From Mesoaciditoga lauensis cd-1655R = DSM 25116 (lineage in GTDB: Bacteria; Thermotogota; Thermotogae; Mesoaciditogales; Mesoaciditogaceae): a stretch of 64,000 nt of DNA. Below, piece by piece: positions 539 through 60,016 of the stretch. The notes under the pieces are model-generated. The model saw only the letters and a program-made list of their open reading frames with translations. It was not told where the DNA came from and ran no database searches. The stretch's first letter is position 1, and each line of letters begins with the position of its first letter. The translations under genes and the position numbers were made by a program. Location: positions 1 through 64,000 of the forward strand of contig NZ_JQJI01000007.1 in NCBI RefSeq assembly GCF_000745455.1, given 5' to 3'.

Positions 539-610
539 CGTGCGTCAAGTTTAAAAATTTACTCAACCTGTGCGTCAATGTTACAAGGTATTTCAAAAAG
601 AAATTAAATC
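539..610. repeat. Repeat-derived flank (3' exon side of the intron)
   Basis: On the minus strand, TTTGAAATACCTTGTAACAT and TTGACGCAC match the T1 flank at 14249-14280. A second GTGCGTCAAGTTTAAAAA motif at 539-560 resembles the outer end of the T4 repeats (14565-14590, 18265-18290). The segment is degraded repeat DNA with no credible gene. Confidence 0.5.
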
Positions 611-2593
611 GTAGGGTCAAGAGATGGCGCCCGGAGTTTAGGGAAAGCCTATCTGTTTCTCCCCGTTTCCTTTGGGAGTGCCTCACTAGCTTTGCCTTGC
701 TGCAGGTTTCCATCTCCTGCCACGTCAAACCGTACGTGCGGTTTTCCCGCATACGGCTTACCTATTTGCTTCATATCTTTAGCTATATGCTATCGAATGG
801 GAGTGCTTTCCGTCAGAGATATCTTATTTTGAAGTCGTTATATACCCCACTTCTTTTGATTATCTCTTTCGTACTCCACCTTTTCCATCCGAATCCATGG
901 CGGTGTTTTGCCCTCATGAGATGTATTCTTATGCGCTTTTCTATCCATCTCTTAATGTATGCAAAACATCTAGCTGAGTTTCCTATTCTGAAGTAATTTA
1001 ACCATCCTCTCAGTATTGGATTTATCTTCTTTATTATCTTTTCCAACTTTTGCGAGCGGTGGTGTTTGAATTCCGCTTTTATTTTGTTGACCAGTTTTAG
1101 CCTAGCTGCTTTGGTTGGTTCAATGTTTGGCCTGTATTTTCCATTTCTTCCCTTAAGCCTTCTGAATTCAAAGCCTAAAAAGCTAAAGCTCTCACCTTTT
1201 GTCAAATCCACTATTTTCGACTTTTCTTCGTTGAGTTTTACCTCTATCTTCTCATATTCTTCTTTGAGTCTTTTGTTCACCTGTCTTGTCAGTTTTTCGT
1301 TTGTTCTAATCAGTATTACCAAATCATCTGCATATCTGGCATATTCGAGTTGTGTACGTTTACCTATCTTCGTCACTTCTTTTGCTTTTTCTAACATTTT
1401 ATCCACGTCGTTTAGATATATGTTGGCAAGTAATGGCGATATGACTCCTCCTTGAGGTATGCCCTTCTTTCCGTTTGCTTTCAATATGAGCTTGAGTAGG
1501 TGTAAGACCTTTAGGTCGCTCACACGTTTTGCAACTTTCTCAAGTAGTATATGATGCCTTACATTGTCAAAGAATGATGATATGTCTAAATCTATTACCG
1601 TTGTCTTATCTTGCCATATGGCTTTACTCACATGAGAAATTGCCTGGTGCGCGCTTCTTTTTGGCCTAAATCCGTATGAACCTTCTTGAAAATCTGCTTC
1701 AAATATTGGTTCCAATATGAGCTTCATGGCTGCTTGCACTACTCTATCTTTTATGGTTGGAATGGAAAGAGTTCTTTTCTTTCCATTCGCTTTTGGTATC
1801 TTCACATTCTTCATCTTTTGCGGAAGATATTCTCCGTTTAACAGCTCTTCTCTTAATTTGGATAGATATTTCTCAACACCGATTTTGTCAATGTCTTCAA
1901 ATCTTATTCCATCTACACCACCTGAGGCGTTGTTTTTCTTTACCAGTTTGTATGCACTGAGAAGTGTTTCCATCTTTGTCACATGTACATACATACCCCA
2001 GAATCTCCATGTTGGTTCGCTCTTCGCCTTGATATATATCTTCCTACGCAAGTCCTTCAAGCTAACGGTCGTCATTGTCAGACACCTTGTCATCCTTTCT
2101 TGTAGCAAGAAATACAAACAGTAGGGCTCCTTCGCTCGAGGGATATTACTCCCCGTCATAACTACTACAAACCCATCCGCCACCTTCTCACCTTTGGGTC
2201 AACTTCCCTTCTTCAGGTTATATGACTTAATCGCTCAAGAGATTTCTCTCAGGGGTGAGGAAGGTTTCTCCAGTTGCATGGTATATCCTTGTTATCGTGC
2301 CGTCGCTAGTACCCCGCCAGGATGAATACAAGTCTCAGCCAGTATTCATGCATTCATGATGCTTTCACTCAGGATGAAAGAGCTCAGCTCCTGGTGCTTA
2401 AACTTCTTACGAGGCTACCTATGCCTTCATTTACATTACGGCCCGATAACTTGCTCAGCATCCATATGATGCCTTTGTCATTAGGCTTCAAAGGTTCAGT
2501 TTCCTTCCCCTTTGCTAATCAAGCTACGGGTCTCTGGCTTTTAACCCGATGGGCTTATCTCCCACTGAATATACCTACCTTTCCTGGACACAC
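611..2593 (-). mobile_element. Complete group II intron with maturase ORF
   Basis: Read on the minus strand, the intron begins GTGTG at 2593 and ends CCTAC at 611. Domain V is the hairpin AAGCCGTATGCGG/CCGCACGTACGGTTT (759-727). After a 3-nt linker, domain VI is a stem CAGGAGATGG/CCATCTCTTG closed below by GG/CC, with a single bulged A at 617, 7 nt from the 3' end: the expected lariat branch point. The domain VI loop is unusually long, about 80 nt. Both ends are confirmed by an intron-free relative of the insertion site at 14234-14290: joining the exons gives GGGTGA + GATTTAATTTC, matching GGGTGA + GAACTAATCCC there, followed by shared TTTGAAAT and TGTAACATTGACGC. The 5' exon ends 7 nt after the base of a T1 foldback, the target type used by group IIC introns; the class itself is inferred. 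Confidence 0.85.
813..2075 (-). CDS. ltrA: Group II intron reverse transcriptase/maturase
   Basis: The protein (420 aa) copies intron RNA into DNA at the target and assists splicing as a maturase. Visible are the RT finger/palm blocks (RTLSIPTIKDRVVQ, YGFRPKRSAHQAI), the catalytic motif YADD within YARYADDLVILI, and a C-terminal maturase thumb (ILRGWLNYFRIGNSAR, IEKRIRIHLMRAKHRHGFGWK). No HNH endonuclease domain follows, as in endonuclease-minus introns that home to single-stranded or hairpin-flanked targets. The start chosen is the ATG of MTTVSLKDLRRK at 2075, which has AAGGTG at good spacing; the open frame extends to 2183. It sits inside the intron with domains V and VI intact downstream, so the element looks functional. 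Confidence 0.9.
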   Translation of the reverse strand: MTTVSLKDLRRKIYIKAKSEPTWRFWGMYVHVTKMETLLSAYKLVKKNNASGGVDGIRFEDIDKIGVEKYLSKLREELLNGEYLPQKMKNVKIPKANGKKRTLSIPTIKDRVVQAAMKLILEPIFEADFQEGSYGFRPKRSAHQAISHVSKAIWQDKTTVIDLDISSFFDNVRHHILLEKVAKRVSDLKVLHLLKLILKANGKKGIPQGGVISPLLANIYLNDVDKMLEKAKEVTKIGKRTQLEYARYADDLVILIRTNEKLTRQVNKRLKEEYEKIEVKLNEEKSKIVDLTKGESFSFLGFEFRRLKGRNGKYRPNIEPTKAARLKLVNKIKAEFKHHRSQKLEKIIKKINPILRGWLNYFRIGNSARCFAYIKRWIEKRIRIHLMRAKHRHGFGWKRWSTKEIIKRSGVYNDFKIRYL

Positions 2594-2599
2594 TCACCC

Positions 2600-2773
2600 T
2601 CGAAGTACTTGTCAGAACATATGAGCTCTCCGTCTGAGGATTCAAAATATGAGGTTGAAAGGCACAGGACGTGCTGAGAAAGCGAAGCACTCATGGATGA
2701 GTGTCTGAGCGTGCCTCATATTTTGAATTAGGAAGGCGGAAAGAAGAGCGAATCCGTTCTGGCAGGACTTCGA
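2600..2773 (+). repeat. T1 foldback repeat, copy 1
   Basis: This is a 174-nt foldback. The basal arms CGAAGTACTTGTCAGAAC (2601-2618) and GTTCTGGCAGGACTTCG (2756-2772) pair. An inner stem joins 2639-2654 with 2714-2729. Inside it lie a hairpin GGCAC-AGGAC-GTGCT (2661-2675), the conserved unpaired GAGAAAGCGAAG (2676-2687) and a hairpin CACTC-ATGGAT-GAGTG (2688-2703). It lies beside the group II intron, forming its 5' exon on the minus strand. No open frame is conserved with the other copies. Confidence 0.85.
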
Positions 2774-2868
2774 AAAAAATCACCTTGACCGCTTGGAAAG
2801 CGGTAGTGAAATGTCAAAGGATGCTATTATTCGAAATATGTTATCCACACAAATTCGCAGAGAACTAA
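2774..2868 (+). repeat. Conserved 3' tail of the T1 repeat
   Basis: A tail of about 95 nt follows T1 here, at 17959-18056 and at 59919-60016. It contains a hairpin CCGCTT-GGA-AAGCGG, nested within TTGAC/GTCAA, and then TTATCCACA (2841-2849), identical to the E. coli DnaA-box consensus. The tail ends at CGCAGAGAAC in all three copies. Confidence 0.7.
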
Positions 2869-13921: not shown

Positions 13922-14066
13922 GGTAGAGTACTCATGTTGTGCGTGAACATTACGAAAGATATTACAAGAGACATTACAAAAATTCTCTATAAGAACATGT
14001 GAGCAACATTTGAATACAACGTTTTTGATTTAGGATCCGCTTTCCAAGCGGTCAAGGTGATTTTTT

Positions 14067-14239
14067 TCGAAGTACTTGTCAGAACGGATTCGCTCTTCTT
14101 TCCATCTTACAATTCAAAATACGAGGCACGCTCAGACACTCGTCCGTGAGTGCTTCGCTTTTTCGGCACGTCTTGTGCCTTTCAACCTCATATTTTGAAT
14201 TTCCAGATGGGAGCTCATATGTTCTGACAAGTACTTCGA
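14067..14239 (-). repeat. T1 foldback repeat, copy 2
   Basis: This is a 173-nt foldback in minus orientation with the most perfect arms of the family: 18 bp of CGAAGTACTTGTCAGAAC pair with their exact complement. The inner hairpins are GGCAC-AAGAC-GTGCC and CACTC-ACGGAC-GAGTG, with the core GAAAAAGCGAAG (one change from the other copies). Its flank at 14240-14290 is the intron-free relative of the group II intron insertion site. It lies between phoH and tsaE, both on the minus strand. Confidence 0.85.
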
Positions 14240-14314
14240 GGGTGAGAACTAATCCCTTTTGAAATGCTCTGTAACATTGACGCGCAATGTGAGTAGAGTA
14301 ACATTCGTTATCTC

Positions 14315-14597
14315 TTCTCTTTAGCCTCGTATCAATACTTCGAAACCCCCTTCGTCGGCTTCGTCGCCACTTCCCCCGCAAGCGGGGGCAGACTTCTTAT
14401 ATAAAATGACTCCGCCGACACTTCTCCCACACGTAGGGGCAGATTTTTCAATTTGGAAAGTGGTTTTCTTGAGTCTCATCCCAAAACCGGGAGGAGTGGT
14501 GGCGTTAGCCAGCGAGGAGGGTTTATTTCCCCTCTTAACTTTCAATACTGAAGACTTTCCAATTGATTTTTTAAACCTGACGCACAAAATGGCTTAT
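14315..14597 (+). repeat. T4 GC-rich palindromic repeat, copy a
   Basis: This repeat carries CCCCCTTCGTCGGCTTCG, the hairpin CCCCCGCAAGCGGGGG and a second, imperfect copy of the same module (CCGCCGACACTTCTCCC). A conserved outer end follows (AACTTTCAATACTGAAGACT, then ...AATTGATTTTTTAAAC...GACGCACAAAATGG). An unrelated segment of about 80 nt at 14455-14530 appears to be inserted. The element fills the gap between T1 and the phoH stop. Open frames across it are not conserved between copies. Confidence 0.6.
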
Positions 14598-17661: not shown

Positions 17662-17784
17662 CGTTTTTAGGGTTCTCATCAGTTTAGTGTGGGTAAAGCA
17701 TACCGATTCTCTATTCTGTCTGTTGGTGCAGCTGAACAAAATCATTCCAAAATACCTTGTTATCAAGTAAAAGAACAAGCATCC
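17662..17784 (+). repeat. Conserved 5' flank of T1, form B (copy 3)
   Basis: About 120 nt from GTTTTTAGGGTTCTCATCAG to AAAAGAACAAGCATCC match 59621-59744 closely. The T1 at this locus therefore moves or was duplicated with a larger unit (17662-18056, about 395 nt). Copies 1 and 2 have a different 5' flank. Confidence 0.65.
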
Positions 17785-17958
17785 TCGAAGTACTTGTCAG
17801 AACATATGAGCTCCCCATCTGGAGATTCATAAATATGAGGTTGAGAGGCACAGGACGTGCCGAGAAAGCGAAGCACTCATGGACGAGTGTCTGAGCGTGC
17901 CTCATATTTTGAATTGTAAGATGGAAAAAGGAGCGAATTCGTTCTGACAGGACTTCGA
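17785..17958 (+). repeat. T1 foldback repeat, copy 3
   Basis: This 174-nt T1 has arms CGAAGTACTTGTCAGAAC and GTTCTGACAGGACTTCG, the hairpin GGCAC-AGGAC-GTGCC, the core GAGAAAGCGAAG and the hairpin CACTC-ATGGAC-GAGTG. It lies in the divergent gap between the 5'-nucleotidase and the aldo-keto reductase, so promoters of both may be close to or within the repeat block. Confidence 0.85.
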
Positions 17959-18056
17959 AAAAAATTACCTTGGCCGCTTGGAAAGCGGTAGTAAAATGTC
18001 AAAGGATGATATCTATTATTCGAAATATGTTATCCACACAAATTCGCAGAGAACTA
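17959..18056 (+). repeat. Conserved 3' tail of T1 (copy 3)
   Basis: This is the same tail as after copies 1 and 8: CCGCTTGGAAAGCGG hairpin, then TTCGAAATATG and TTATCCACA (18030-18038), ending at CGCAGAGAAC. It runs directly into a T4 repeat. Confidence 0.7.
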
Positions 18057-18292
18057 AGATTTGTCATCTCTTCTCTTTGGTTTCGTATCAAAACTCGAAC
18101 CCCCTTCGTCGGCTTCGCCGACACTTCCCCCACAAGTGGAGGCAGACTTCTTATACAAAATGGCTTCGTTGATATTTCCCTACAAATTGGCAGAATATCC
18201 ACAAAAGGAAAGAAAGGTTTATTTTCCATATTAACTTTCTATACCGAAAACTTTCCAATCGATTTCTTAAACTTGATGCACAAGATGAGTAA
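18057..18292 (+). repeat. T4 GC-rich palindromic repeat, copy b
   Basis: It contains CCCCCTTCGTCGGCTTCGCC, the hairpin GTCGGCTTCGCCGAC and the imperfect hairpin CCCCCACAAGTGGAGG, then ATATTTCCCTACAAATTGGC and the outer end AACTTTCTATACCGAAAACT...CGATTTCTTAAACTTGATGC. It ends about 55 nt before the aldo-keto reductase start. Confidence 0.6.
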
Positions 18293-18349
18293 AGTTTTTT
18301 CCATCAAAAATGATGTTAAAATTTAATGGAGAAAGGAGTGAATGATGCC

Positions 18350-20502: not shown

Positions 20503-20772
20503 AGTTCAAGAAATCAATTGGAAAGTTTTCGGTATAGAAAGTTAATATGGAAAATAAACCTTTCTTTCCTTTTGTGGATATTCTGCCAATTTGTAGGGAA
20601 ATATCAACGAAGCCATTTTGTATAAGAAACCTGCCACCCCCCTGGGAGAAATGTCAACAGAACTATTTTTATATAAGAGGTCTGCCCCCATTTATGGAGG
20701 AAGTGTTGGCGGAGCCGACGAAGGGGGTTCGAGTTTTGACAGAAAACCAACGAGAAGAGATAACGAATCCTA
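20503..20772 (-). repeat. T4 GC-rich palindromic repeat, copy c
   Basis: This is the reverse-oriented T4. It starts at the conserved outer end (TTGAGTTCAAGAAATCAATT, GGAAAGTTTTCGGTATAGAA) and carries two module copies, the second ending GTTGGCGGAGCCGAC and GAAGGGGG. The duplicate module (20630-20680) shows internal expansion. A 95-residue open frame across it is treated as non-coding. Confidence 0.6.
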
Positions 20773-20784
20773 TTCTACTATTTG

Positions 20785-20841
20785 TTGAAGTTTCTGTCAA
20801 AACGTATGAAAACGCCATACCAGATGCGAAATAACAGAGTT
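20785..20841 (+). repeat. Truncated T3 (5' arm only)
   Basis: TTGAAGTTTCTGTCAAAACG, then CATACCAGATGCGAAATAAC and CAGAG match the 5' arm of T3. The sequence then jumps to the T-rich spacer before a T2. The 3' arm is missing. Confidence 0.6.
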
Positions 20842-20864
20842 TTTTCTTCTCTCTTCCCTTTATC

Positions 20865-21034
20865 GAAACACTCGCCAGCACTTATGAACTCTCCATCTGA
20901 AGACTCTAAAAACGAGGTTGAGAAACACACGGATGTGTTGAGAAAGCGAAGCACTCATGGACGAGTGTCTGAGCGTGCCTCGTTTTTTGAGTCGTAAGAT
21001 GGGTAAAAGAGTGAATCATGCTGGCATGTGTTTC
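20865..21034 (+). repeat. T2 foldback repeat, copy A
   Basis: This 170-nt foldback has arms GAAACACTCGCCAGCA and TGCTGGCATGTGTTTC. It has an intermediate stem CCATCT/AGATGG, an inner stem GACTCTAAAAACGAGG/CCTCGTTTTTTGAGTC, the hairpin AACACA-CGGA-TGTGTT, the core GAGAAAGCGAAG and the hairpin CACTC-ATGGAC-GAGTG. Stem sequences differ from T1 but every stem is preserved. Confidence 0.85.
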
Positions 21035-21073
21035 AGATCAAATGCTTTTCTTCGCTTTTCTCTTCCCTTTTTT

Positions 21074-21242
21074 TGAAGTTTTCGTCAAAACATATGAAGA
21101 CGCCATACAAGATGCGAAATAACAGAGTTGGAGGCACACGATGTGCCGAGAAAGCGAATCTAACAGGATGTTTGTATGCAGCGGGCTCTGTTATGAGCAT
21201 CTTGTATGGATATACGTCTGAATCAGTTTTGACAAAACTTCA
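21074..21242 (+). repeat. T3 foldback repeat, copy A
   Basis: This 169-nt foldback has arms TGAAGTTTTCGTCAAAAC and GTTTTGACAAAACTTCA. It has inner stems ATACAAGATGC/GCATCTTGTAT and AATAACAGAG/CTCTGTTAT separated by a symmetric GA/GA internal loop, the hairpin GGCAC-ACGAT-GTGCC, the core GAGAAAGCGAA and a small hairpin AACA-GGA-TGTT. It follows T2 copy A after a T/C-rich spacer of about 40 nt. The T2-T3 pair fills the convergent gap before glnA. Confidence 0.85.
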
Positions 21243-21349
21243 AAATTTTCTTTTGTCTTATTAAGCCTCACAAAAAACTTCAAAACGCTATAATTTTTCG
21301 CTCATACAAAATCAAGAAAAATTTTCCTTACATTCACAATGAAAATAAT

Positions 21350-25417: not shown

Positions 25418-25516
25418 AAGATGGAGAAGACCCCCTACGTCGGCTTTGCCGCCACTTCCCCCGCAAGCGGGGGCAGACTTATATAAAAATGATTCCATCG
25501 ACATTTTACTTTTATG
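25418..25516 (+). repeat. T4 GC-rich palindromic repeat, copy d
   Basis: This short T4 has CCCCCTACGTCGGCTTTGCC, the perfect hairpin CCCCCGCAAGCGGGGG and CAGACTTATATAAAAATG. The outer end seen in copies a to c is missing. Confidence 0.55.
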
Positions 25517-25566
25517 ATGAGAAATCGAATCTACCAGGTTTTTTCCACCTTTTCTCCTTTTGAATC

Positions 25567-25736
25567 GAAACACTCGCCAGCACTTATGAACTCGCCATCT
25601 GAAGACTCTAAAAACGAGGTTGAGAAACACACGGATGTGTTGAGAAAGCGAAGCACTCATGGACGAGTGTCTGAGCGTGCCTCGTTTTTTGAGTCGTAAG
25701 ATGGGTAAAAGAGTGAATCATGCTGGCATGTGTTTC
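25567..25736 (+). repeat. T2 foldback repeat, copy B
   Basis: This 170-nt copy is nearly identical to T2 copy A (20865-21034), including both arms, the AACACA-CGGA-TGTGTT hairpin and the core. It lies upstream of T3 copy B in the same tandem arrangement. Confidence 0.85.
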
Positions 25737-25775
25737 AGATCAAATGCTTTTCTTCGCTTTTCTCTTCTCCCCCTT

Positions 25776-25944
25776 TGAAGTTTTCGTCCAAACATATGAA
25801 GACGCCATACAAGATGCGAAATAACAGAGTTAGAGGCACAGGATGTGCCGAGAAAGCGAATCTAACACGACGTTTGTATGCAGCGGGCTCTGTTATGAGC
25901 ATCTTGTATGGGTATACGTCTGAATCAGTTTTGACAAAACTTCA
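25776..25944 (+). repeat. T3 foldback repeat, copy B
   Basis: This 169-nt copy has an isolated change (GTCCAAAC for GTCAAAAC) in the 5' arm and GGCAC-AGGAT-GTGCC as its first hairpin. The T2-T3 unit 25567-25944 has the same total length (378 nt) as 20865-21242. It ends about 60 nt before the sbcC stop. Confidence 0.85.
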
Positions 25945-26003
25945 AAAATTCCCTTTGCCTTGCTAAAACCCTCAAAATTCTTTCAAAGCATGACTTAAAA
26001 TCG

Positions 26004-43551: not shown

Positions 43552-43574
43552 TTTCTTCTCTCCCTTTTTCTTTC

Positions 43575-43745
43575 GAAACGCTTGCCGGCACTTATGAACT
43601 CTCCAGCTGAAGACTCATAAAAACGAAGTTGGGAAACACACGGATGTGTTGAGAAAGCGAAGCACTCATGGACGAGTGTCTGAGCGTGCCTCGTTTTTTG
43701 AGTCGTAAGATGGATAAAAGAGTGAATCCGTGCTGGCTGGGTTTC
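43575..43745 (+). repeat. T2 foldback repeat, copy C
   Basis: This 171-nt copy has arms GAAACGCTTGCCGGCA and TGCTGGCTGGGTTTC. It carries substitutions relative to copies A and B in the arms, and pairing is largely kept with wobble pairs. The inner hairpins and core are unchanged. Confidence 0.82.
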
Positions 43746-43786
43746 GGATTAATTATGCCTTTCTCTGCCTTTCTCTCTCCTTTTTT

Positions 43787-43955
43787 TGAAGTTTCTGTCA
43801 AAACATATGAAGACGCCATACAAAATGCGAAATAACAGAGTTGGAGGCACACGATGTGCCGAGAAAGCGAATCTAACAGGATGTTTGTATGCAGCGGGCT
43901 CTGTTATGAGCATCTTGTATGGATATACGTCTGAATCAGTTTTGACAAAACTTCA
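43787..43955 (+). repeat. T3 foldback repeat, copy C
   Basis: This 169-nt copy has the 5' arm TGAAGTTTCTGTCAAAAC and the 3' arm GTTTTGACAAAACTTCA, with the same inner stems as copies A and B. It forms the third T2-T3 tandem unit (43575-43955) and lies just downstream of the large oxidoreductase operon. Confidence 0.85.
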
Positions 43956-44030
43956 AAACTCTTTTTTCAATGATCGCCTTTTCGCACTGATTAAAACCAT
44001 TACCTTCATGCACATCAAGAGTAAAAAACT

Positions 44031-57581: not shown

Positions 57582-57690
57582 GGCATCGATGAAGTTTTAT
57601 ATAAGTCAAGTCTTCCTCCATTTATGGTGGAAGTGTCGGCGAAGCCGACGAAGGGGGCAGAGTTTTGATATAAGGCCAAAGAAAAGGGGG
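57582..57690 (-). repeat. T4 GC-rich palindromic repeat, copy e
   Basis: This reverse-oriented short T4 has GATGAAGTTTTATATAAGTC, TCCTCCATTTATGGTGGAAG and GTGTCGGCGAAGCCGACGAA followed by GGGGGC. It occupies the divergent gap between the large operon and the ClC gene. Confidence 0.55.
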
Positions 57691-59620: not shown

Positions 59621-59744
59621 GTTTTTACGGTTCTCATCAGTTTAGTGTGGGTAAAACATGCCGATTCTCTATTCTGTTTGTTGTTTTGGTTCTGAACAAA
59701 ATCATCCCAAAATATCTTGTTATCAAGTAAAAGAACAAGTACCC
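59621..59744 (+). repeat. Conserved 5' flank of T1, form B (copy 8)
   Basis: The sequence from GTTTTTACGGTTCTCATCAG to AAAAGAACAAGTACC matches 17662-17784 with scattered substitutions. Together with T1 and its tail it forms a unit of about 396 nt (59621-60016). Confidence 0.65.
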
Positions 59745-59918
59745 TCGAAGTACTTGTCAGAACATATGAGCGTTCCATCTGAAGATTCACAAATATGAGG
59801 TTGAGAGGCACAGGACGTGCCGAGAAAGCGAAGCACTCATGGACGAGTGTCTGAGCGTGCCTCATATTTTGAATCGTAAGATGGAAAAAAGAGCGAATCC
59901 GTTCTGACAGGACTTCGA
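59745..59918 (+). repeat. T1 foldback repeat, copy at 59.7 kb
   Basis: This 174-nt T1 has full arms, GGCAC-AGGAC-GTGCC, GAGAAAGCGAAG and CACTC-ATGGAC-GAGTG. It lies in the convergent gap between the ClC gene and nrdJ. Confidence 0.85.
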
Positions 59919-60016
59919 AAAAAATCACCTTGACCGCTTGGAAGGCGGTAGTAAGTAAAATGTCAAAAGATGCTATTATTCGAAATATGTTATCCACACA
60001 AATTCGCAGAGAACTG
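59919..60016 (+). repeat. Conserved 3' tail of T1 (59.9 kb)
   Basis: It holds the CCGCTTGGAAGGCGG hairpin, TTCGAAATATG, TTATCCACA (59990-59998) and an end at CGCAGAGAAC. The remaining 60017-60102 is AT-rich with a distant match to 13943-13983 and no terminator for nrdJ that I can see. Confidence 0.7.

Follow-up and report, generated by a model that had tools for sequence, protein, structure and literature searches.

The RNA family TwoAYGGAY (RF01731) was published from gut metagenomes, gamma-Proteobacteria and Clostridiales (PMC2864571). Gardner and Eldai found in it two matches to the CsrA site together with tandem GAs and proposed, without validation, that its members are CsrA-binding sRNAs; in 2014, CsrA-sequestering RNAs were described as known only from gamma-Proteobacteria, and TwoAYGGAY as a bioinformatic orphan that might be linked to CsrA (PMC4333381). 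The site recognized by CsrA/RsmE has the consensus (A/U)CANGGANG(U/A) (PMC7652899, PMC4894983). The window analyzed here, the first 64,000 nucleotides of a contig of Mesoaciditoga lauensis, contains the repeats T1, T2 and T3, which are diverged copies of one structured unit of about 170 nt (Table 1). On balance, these repeats are probably a structured RNA cassette related to TwoAYGGAY that travels as cargo of non-autonomous MITEs of several families and is predicted to bind CsrA and to compete with its mRNA targets. The initial annotation, which was concerned with the stems, missed both the status of the units as cargo of mobile elements and the functional signal in the loops.

Each unit is formed by a long stem that leads into a three-way junction with two hairpins, H1 and H2; the stem is interrupted by an internal loop of tandem GA and by an asymmetric bulge of 5 nt. 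The fold energies of T2 and T3 were −74.6 and −76.8 kcal/mol, respectively, and none of 200 shuffles was as good in either case (z values in Table 1). The UAUGA/GAAU loop is retained across Mesoaciditogaceae units of several genera, and the bulge GUAAA of T2 has the counterparts AAAGA in T1 and AUAUA in T3.

Table 1. Positions of the units, of their structural elements and of the carrier elements in the window.
Feature	Position	Strand	Support or remark
T2 unit, probable structured RNA, ~171 nt	20864–21034	+	Fold z −7.7; alignments; TwoAYGGAY covariance-model match 20883–21012, 30.3 bits (below the 43-bit cut-off)
T2 tandem-GA internal loop	5' side UAUGA 20883–20887; 3' side GAAU 21013–21016	+	
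T2 hairpin H1, AACAC-ACGGAU-GUGUU, CsrA-type AYGGAY hexaloop	20924–20939; GGA 20931–20933	+	AYGGAY in 47/48 and GGA in 48/48 T2 units
Conserved linker GAGAAAGCGAA joining T2 hairpins H1 and H2	20940–20950	+	Core pattern: 238 own-genome sites, control 3
T2 hairpin H2, CACUC-AUGGAC-GAGUG, second AYGGAY hexaloop	20952–20967; GGA 20959–20961	+	GGA in 94/95 T1/T2 units
T2 asymmetric 5-nt bulge GUAAA, 3' strand	21003–21007	+	Sequence and folds
T3 unit, ~170 nt	21074–21243	+	Fold z −9.9; alignment of 23 T3 units
T3 hairpin H1	21133–21147	+	CGA loop in the 21074–21243 copy
T3 hairpin H2 core (AACAGGAUGUU)	21162–21172	+	
T1 copies (n = 4)	2601–2773; 14067–14238 (−); 17786–17958; 59746–59918		
Second T2-T3 pair	25566–25945 (T2 25566–25736, T3 25776–25945)	+	97% identity with the first pair (378 nt compared)
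Third T2-T3 pair	43574–43956 (T2 43574–43745, T3 43787–43956)	+	93%; C-type right end ...CATGCACATCAAGAG
Truncated T3 5' half upstream of T2, in [T3'-T2] array	20786–20841	+	BLAST map; arrangement recurs at many loci
A-type MITE with T1 17786–17958 and small hairpin H3 17974–17988	17672–18057	+	Left end 17672–17785 in 25 places; 8–9-bp duplications in sister copies
A-type MITE with T1 59746–59918	59630–60015	+	
B-type MITE with T1 14067–14238 (−)	13929–14294	−	Target duplication TACTCTA on either side
Hybrid MITE: B-type left end 561–599, group II intron, T1 2601–2773, A-type right end 2774–2868	561–2868	+	

The initial annotation had reported compensatory changes in every main stem between the three units. 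The arms that it quoted for T1, T2 and T3 were all present exactly in the sequence, and the claim held in the three-way comparison, which samples few independent events; between T1 and T2 alone it did not, the 6-bp stem CCATCT/AGATGG and hairpin H2 being identical in the two. Hairpin H2 of T3 carries a U–U mismatch in its own genome. In a 10-unit alignment of T1–T3, 19 of the 43 predicted pairs had changed on both sides at least once without loss of pairing. Among 49 units of the T1 and T2 types, 18 pairs were changed on both sides compared with 10.8 ± 1.7 in shuffles (raw counts), and paired cells amounted to 96%, against at most 41% when the structure was slid; most of the changes among these units fell on the split between T1 and T2. 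A tree-aware test resembling R-scape (FastTree, Fitch, a G-test with APC, and 60 null alignments in which the same substitutions were randomly placed) found 0 of 55 pairs significant in the same 49 units.

When it was run with 63 homologues from Mesoaciditogaceae, a Marinitoga-like genus and two more genera, the tree-aware test found 15 pairs at E < 0.05, all 15 inside the proposed structure and none outside, and 28 of 44 pairs passed when the proposed set alone was tested, in an alignment that was made by the covariance model and is biased towards its structure. Matches of this model to the opposite strand of the palindrome had been discarded beforehand. Paired cells in the cross-genus alignment reached 90%, compared with at most 48% when slid. 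The absence of covariation, named at the outset as the result that would speak against a selected fold, was thus closely approached with T1 and T2 alone and was overturned with the homologues from other families.

These results bear on the possibility that the units are neutral passengers, that is, recent MITE copies of an old palindrome whose matched changes arose by template switching between the arms and not by selection. The lack of significant covariation within T1 and T2 and the free recombination of units, as seen in chimeras at loci L030, L065, L066 and L104, would agree with such an origin. However, the 15 pairs significant across genera do not, and correction of one arm by the other would remove the conserved bulge and the mismatched internal loops and would not favor G–U over A–C. 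Moreover, T1 diverged 1.6–2.7 times more slowly than the flanks of the same MITE copies (0.035–0.039 versus 0.061–0.094 substitutions per site), a difference to which homogenizing recombination between cassettes could contribute, and in B-type T1 the paired sites changed less than the unpaired ones (0.025 versus 0.060). A neutral palindrome is already disfavored and is considered the least likely of the rival explanations, with a very low probability.

The strand on which the fold is maintained was suggested by the kinds of imperfect pairs. G–U cells outnumbered A–C cells on the given strand (100 versus 40, p = 4e-7, an optimistic value as the copies are related), an excess that a duplex-level inverted repeat would not predict; within the genome the excess was weak (55 versus 35, p = 0.04), and it was absent from the raw family counts. 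This excess indicates that the plus strand of the unit is the strand kept folded and, together with the 15 significant pairs in the structure, supports the earlier claim that selection acts on a folded molecule, RNA or single-stranded DNA, and not on sequence alone. It does not separate the two molecules, G–T pairs being formed in DNA as well; RNA is favored over single-stranded DNA because the loops are of the CsrA type and the units are related to TwoAYGGAY, and the folded plus strand is probably RNA.

At gathering score, the search of the window against Rfam returned only tRNA and group II intron. A permissive search matched TwoAYGGAY to T2 with 30.3 bits (E 0.003–0.0095), which did not reach the gathering score of 43 bits, and weakly to T3 with 19.5 bits; other T units gave 27.9–29.2 bits or none, most of them having no reportable match. 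The cut-off of RF01731 was passed in just four of 103 Thermotogota genomes, all from one Marinitoga-like genus (g10) of another family, with up to at least 19 matches per genome and copies scoring 43.4–50.8 bits. A model (R1) built from Mesoaciditogaceae T units only, whose E-values are rough owing to a short calibration, gave matches at all nine of the cut-off-passing TwoAYGGAY loci (E ≤ 0.003) and at none of the 11 loci that served as controls. R1 also recovered additional copies in the Marinitoga-like genomes, with E down to 1e-13, and in genomes of genera g26 and g9, where it found at least one or two copies in each. The T units and the Thermotogota copies of TwoAYGGAY have in common the sequence GCGAAGC-hairpin-UCUGAGCG, and the three-way junction on a tandem-GA stem that characterizes TwoAYGGAY was found in the T units by covariance-model alignment, by folds and by the UAUGA/GAAU loop. 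The T units are thus divergent relatives of TwoAYGGAY that lie outside Rfam's membership threshold. Single or few unit homologues were found outside Mesoaciditogaceae and the Marinitoga-like genus, at loci L203, L204 and L205 (genus g9, family f6) and L202 (genus g26); the g9 copies retain the GA loop and GCGAAG/GCGAGG.

The loops of the two hairpins were compared with the CsrA consensus. Both inner loops of T2 are AYGGAY hexaloops closed by C–G (47/48 units in H1 and 47/48 in H2), each agreeing with the consensus (A/U)CANGGANG(U/A), whereas T1 has this hexaloop in H2 only (46/47) and a shorter GGA loop, the pentaloop AGGAY, in H1. T3 presents AGGAY pentaloops, with CGA for GGA in H1 of 9/23 copies; the H1 pentaloop of T1 and T3 is one base shorter than the hexaloop consensus. 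GGA was found in the H1 loops of 44/47 T1, 48/48 T2 and 14/23 T3 units and in the H2 loops of 47/47, 47/48 and 22/23, respectively. The hexaloop positions that vary between C and T are precisely the N positions of the consensus, the two GGA of one unit are about 28 nt apart, and GGA is retained in both loops of nearly all homologues from another family. By contrast, the small hairpin H3 downstream of T1 does not keep its GGA-like loop between genera and serves as an internal contrast to H1 and H2. This hairpin (CCGCTTGGAAAGCGG; window 17974–17988, homologues L012, L013 and L011) lies 15 nt past T1 and covaries between genera (TCGC/GCGA) in its stem, its loop having no kept GGA. The genome encodes csrA (C64:5203–5358) directly after a gene named fliW from its sequence, in a putative fliW-csrA operon. 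As csrA is also encoded by relatives that have no T units, the co-occurrence of csrA and T units is uninformative.

A structured RNA with the same fold may instead be bound by another protein or act in cis, in transcript insulation, stability or attenuation, its GGA loops not being CsrA sites. Such a role would be in line with the strong RNA-type covariation, CsrA binding being itself a prediction, and with the conserved linker GAGAAAGCGAA and the tandem-GA loop, which CsrA alone does not explain. It is nevertheless considered rather unlikely: 94/95 T1/T2 units keep the GGA of H2, with the N positions beside it varying in a way that CsrA sites tolerate, and a cis role would need a consistent orientation to genes, which was not seen. 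A role as terminator was rejected, as the 3' side of T1 has no U run in A-type elements and the units occur in all orientations, including between divergent genes.

The predicted CsrA-binding cassette is carried by MITEs whose ends are of three or more kinds. T1 elements have either A-type ends (GGTTCTCATCAGTTTAGTG...CGCAGAGAACT) or B-type ends (CTCACATTGTGCGTCAATG...CGCACAACATGAG), hybrids of the two being found at L031 and L034, and T2 and T3 are accompanied by C-type ends (ACTCTTAATGTGCGTCAAG...CACGCACGTTAGGAG), which bear a partial likeness to B ends. The elements are short and non-coding, with terminal inverted repeats (A about 385 bp, B about 365 bp, dozens of copies), and target duplications of 7–9 bp flank many A and B copies, such as TTTCTAAT (L051), TTATCAC (L039), TAATGGA (L035) and GTTAAATT (L028). 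A cassette of about 209 bp, CACCCT-T1-H3, is common to otherwise unrelated A and B elements. In the Marinitoga-like genomes, too, short inverted repeats enclose some of the units, e.g., TGTCCAATTAGTAAAG...CTTTACTTTTTGGACA. No autonomous copy or transposase with the same ends was noticed among the end-bearing loci that were read. ISL3 was rejected as the parent of the A-type MITE, as a search of the genome found no ISL3 transposase, and a phage, plasmid or viral origin of the units was rejected for want of any match.

A group II intron (window 600–2594, minus strand; RF02003 match, RT ORF 813–2183) lies inside a MITE arm, inserted 7 nt past the minus-strand T1 hairpin, in the manner of hairpin-targeting introns, and the other copy of the intron (L163, contig C14) is likewise preceded by a small hairpin, AGTTTCTTCGAAACT. 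This suggests a hairpin-targeting group II intron for which T1 is a landing site. The same arrangement, together with the location of the unit within elements that have terminal repeats and 7–9-bp duplications, would fit a device that acts as DNA only and whose hairpin would form while the DNA is single-stranded, in the course of replication or transposition, and would be recognized by a transposase or recombinase. This explanation is considered quite improbable, as the cassette is central and not terminal in elements with unrelated ends, its conservation extends beyond the palindrome to the loop sequences, and its GGA loops match the site of an RNA-binding protein in a relative of the TwoAYGGAY RNA.

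The core pattern of the unit was found at 238 sites of the genome (2.17 Mb in 65 contigs, a draft in which several contigs terminate within units), compared with 3 for the reversed control. Of 9 other Mesoaciditogaceae genomes, 5 contained relatives of the unit, and those of genus g2 contained none, in a search that scored limited candidates per genome, so that copy numbers there are lower bounds. Outside Mesoaciditogaceae, the contig pattern search gave 7 matches, equal to the chance expectation of about 7. With respect to neighboring genes, the units were found in every orientation, including between divergent genes.

Rearranged units were also observed. In arrays (window 20786–20841; L056, L064, L067, L070 and L072), T3 is cut past base 56, 71, 85 or 93 and is followed by a pyrimidine tract and then by T2; the variety of these T3'-T2 breakpoints suggests that template switching or recombination has occurred repeatedly at the hairpin. 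Integron attC sites were rejected as an explanation, as these differing breakpoints do not look site-specific. In chimeric units (L030:2180–2351, L066:629–799, L065:799–969, L104:1573–1743 and L147:1149–1493), the basal stem of T1 is combined with the interior of T2 in both arms, a single crossover lies at the conserved core, or T1 stands inverted between a left end of A type and one of B type. Another dispersed repeat, which contains a GTCGGCTTCGCCGAC palindrome as well as GGGGGCAGACTT... (18091–18300, 14344–14591, 20503–20736 on the minus strand, 25430–25491, and 57595–57657 on the minus strand), is often found beside T-bearing elements.

From the computed fold, covariation, kinship, loop conservation, MITE context and presence of fliW-csrA, we infer transcription of the units, CsrA binding and titration. 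The long stem, with its tandem-GA loop and fixed bulge, would be a rigid support for the three-way junction, from which the two short hairpins would present GGA in hexa- or pentaloops. A transcribed unit may bind one CsrA dimer through both loops, in the way that neighboring GGA hexaloops do in the flaA leader or in RsmZ. Units bound in this manner would compete with the mRNA targets of CsrA, and tandem arrays might bind several dimers. A promoter scan of one element revealed no convincing promoter. More tentatively, and with considerable doubt, it may be proposed that MITEs with several unrelated end types captured a predicted CsrA-binding RNA and spread hundreds of decoys in Thermotogota, whereby a global regulator is titrated, either as a strategy of the elements or as a dispersed CsrB adopted by the host.

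Among known repeats, bcr1 and similar MITE-like repeats of the Bacillus cereus group resemble the T units in being high-copy and non-autonomous with a predicted conserved RNA fold; to our knowledge, unlike the T units, they lack loops of the CsrA type and are not related to TwoAYGGAY. The sponge RNAs CsrB/CsrC and RsmX/Y/Z, compared here by features and not by sequence, similarly present GGA hairpin loops paired for bridging by a CsrA dimer, but concentrate many sites in one or few genes, whereas the T units have two sites each and are dispersed in hundreds. The flaA leader of Campylobacter jejuni, from the CsrA-FliW network, carries two GGA in adjacent CANGGANG-type hexaloops under a FliW-controlled CsrA, with a GGA spacing of 21 nt compared with about 28 nt in the T units; it is an mRNA leader and the T units are a mobile repeat. 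TwoAYGGAY (RF01731) resembles the T units in the two hairpins capped by AYGGAY (both in T2, H2 alone in T1), the three-way junction on a long stem, the tandem GAs and GCGAAGC-hairpin-UCUGAGCG, while the window copies differ in scoring below the gathering cut-off, in the AGGAY pentaloop of H1 in T1 and T3, and in being part of a set of about 240 copies borne by MITEs. If such a hundred-copy, mobile relative exists in a thermophilic phylum that branches deeply and has FliW-CsrA, the suggested link between TwoAYGGAY and CsrA would have a natural laboratory; the T units would also show a route by which such RNAs spread and raise the question of transposons manipulating a global post-transcriptional regulator.
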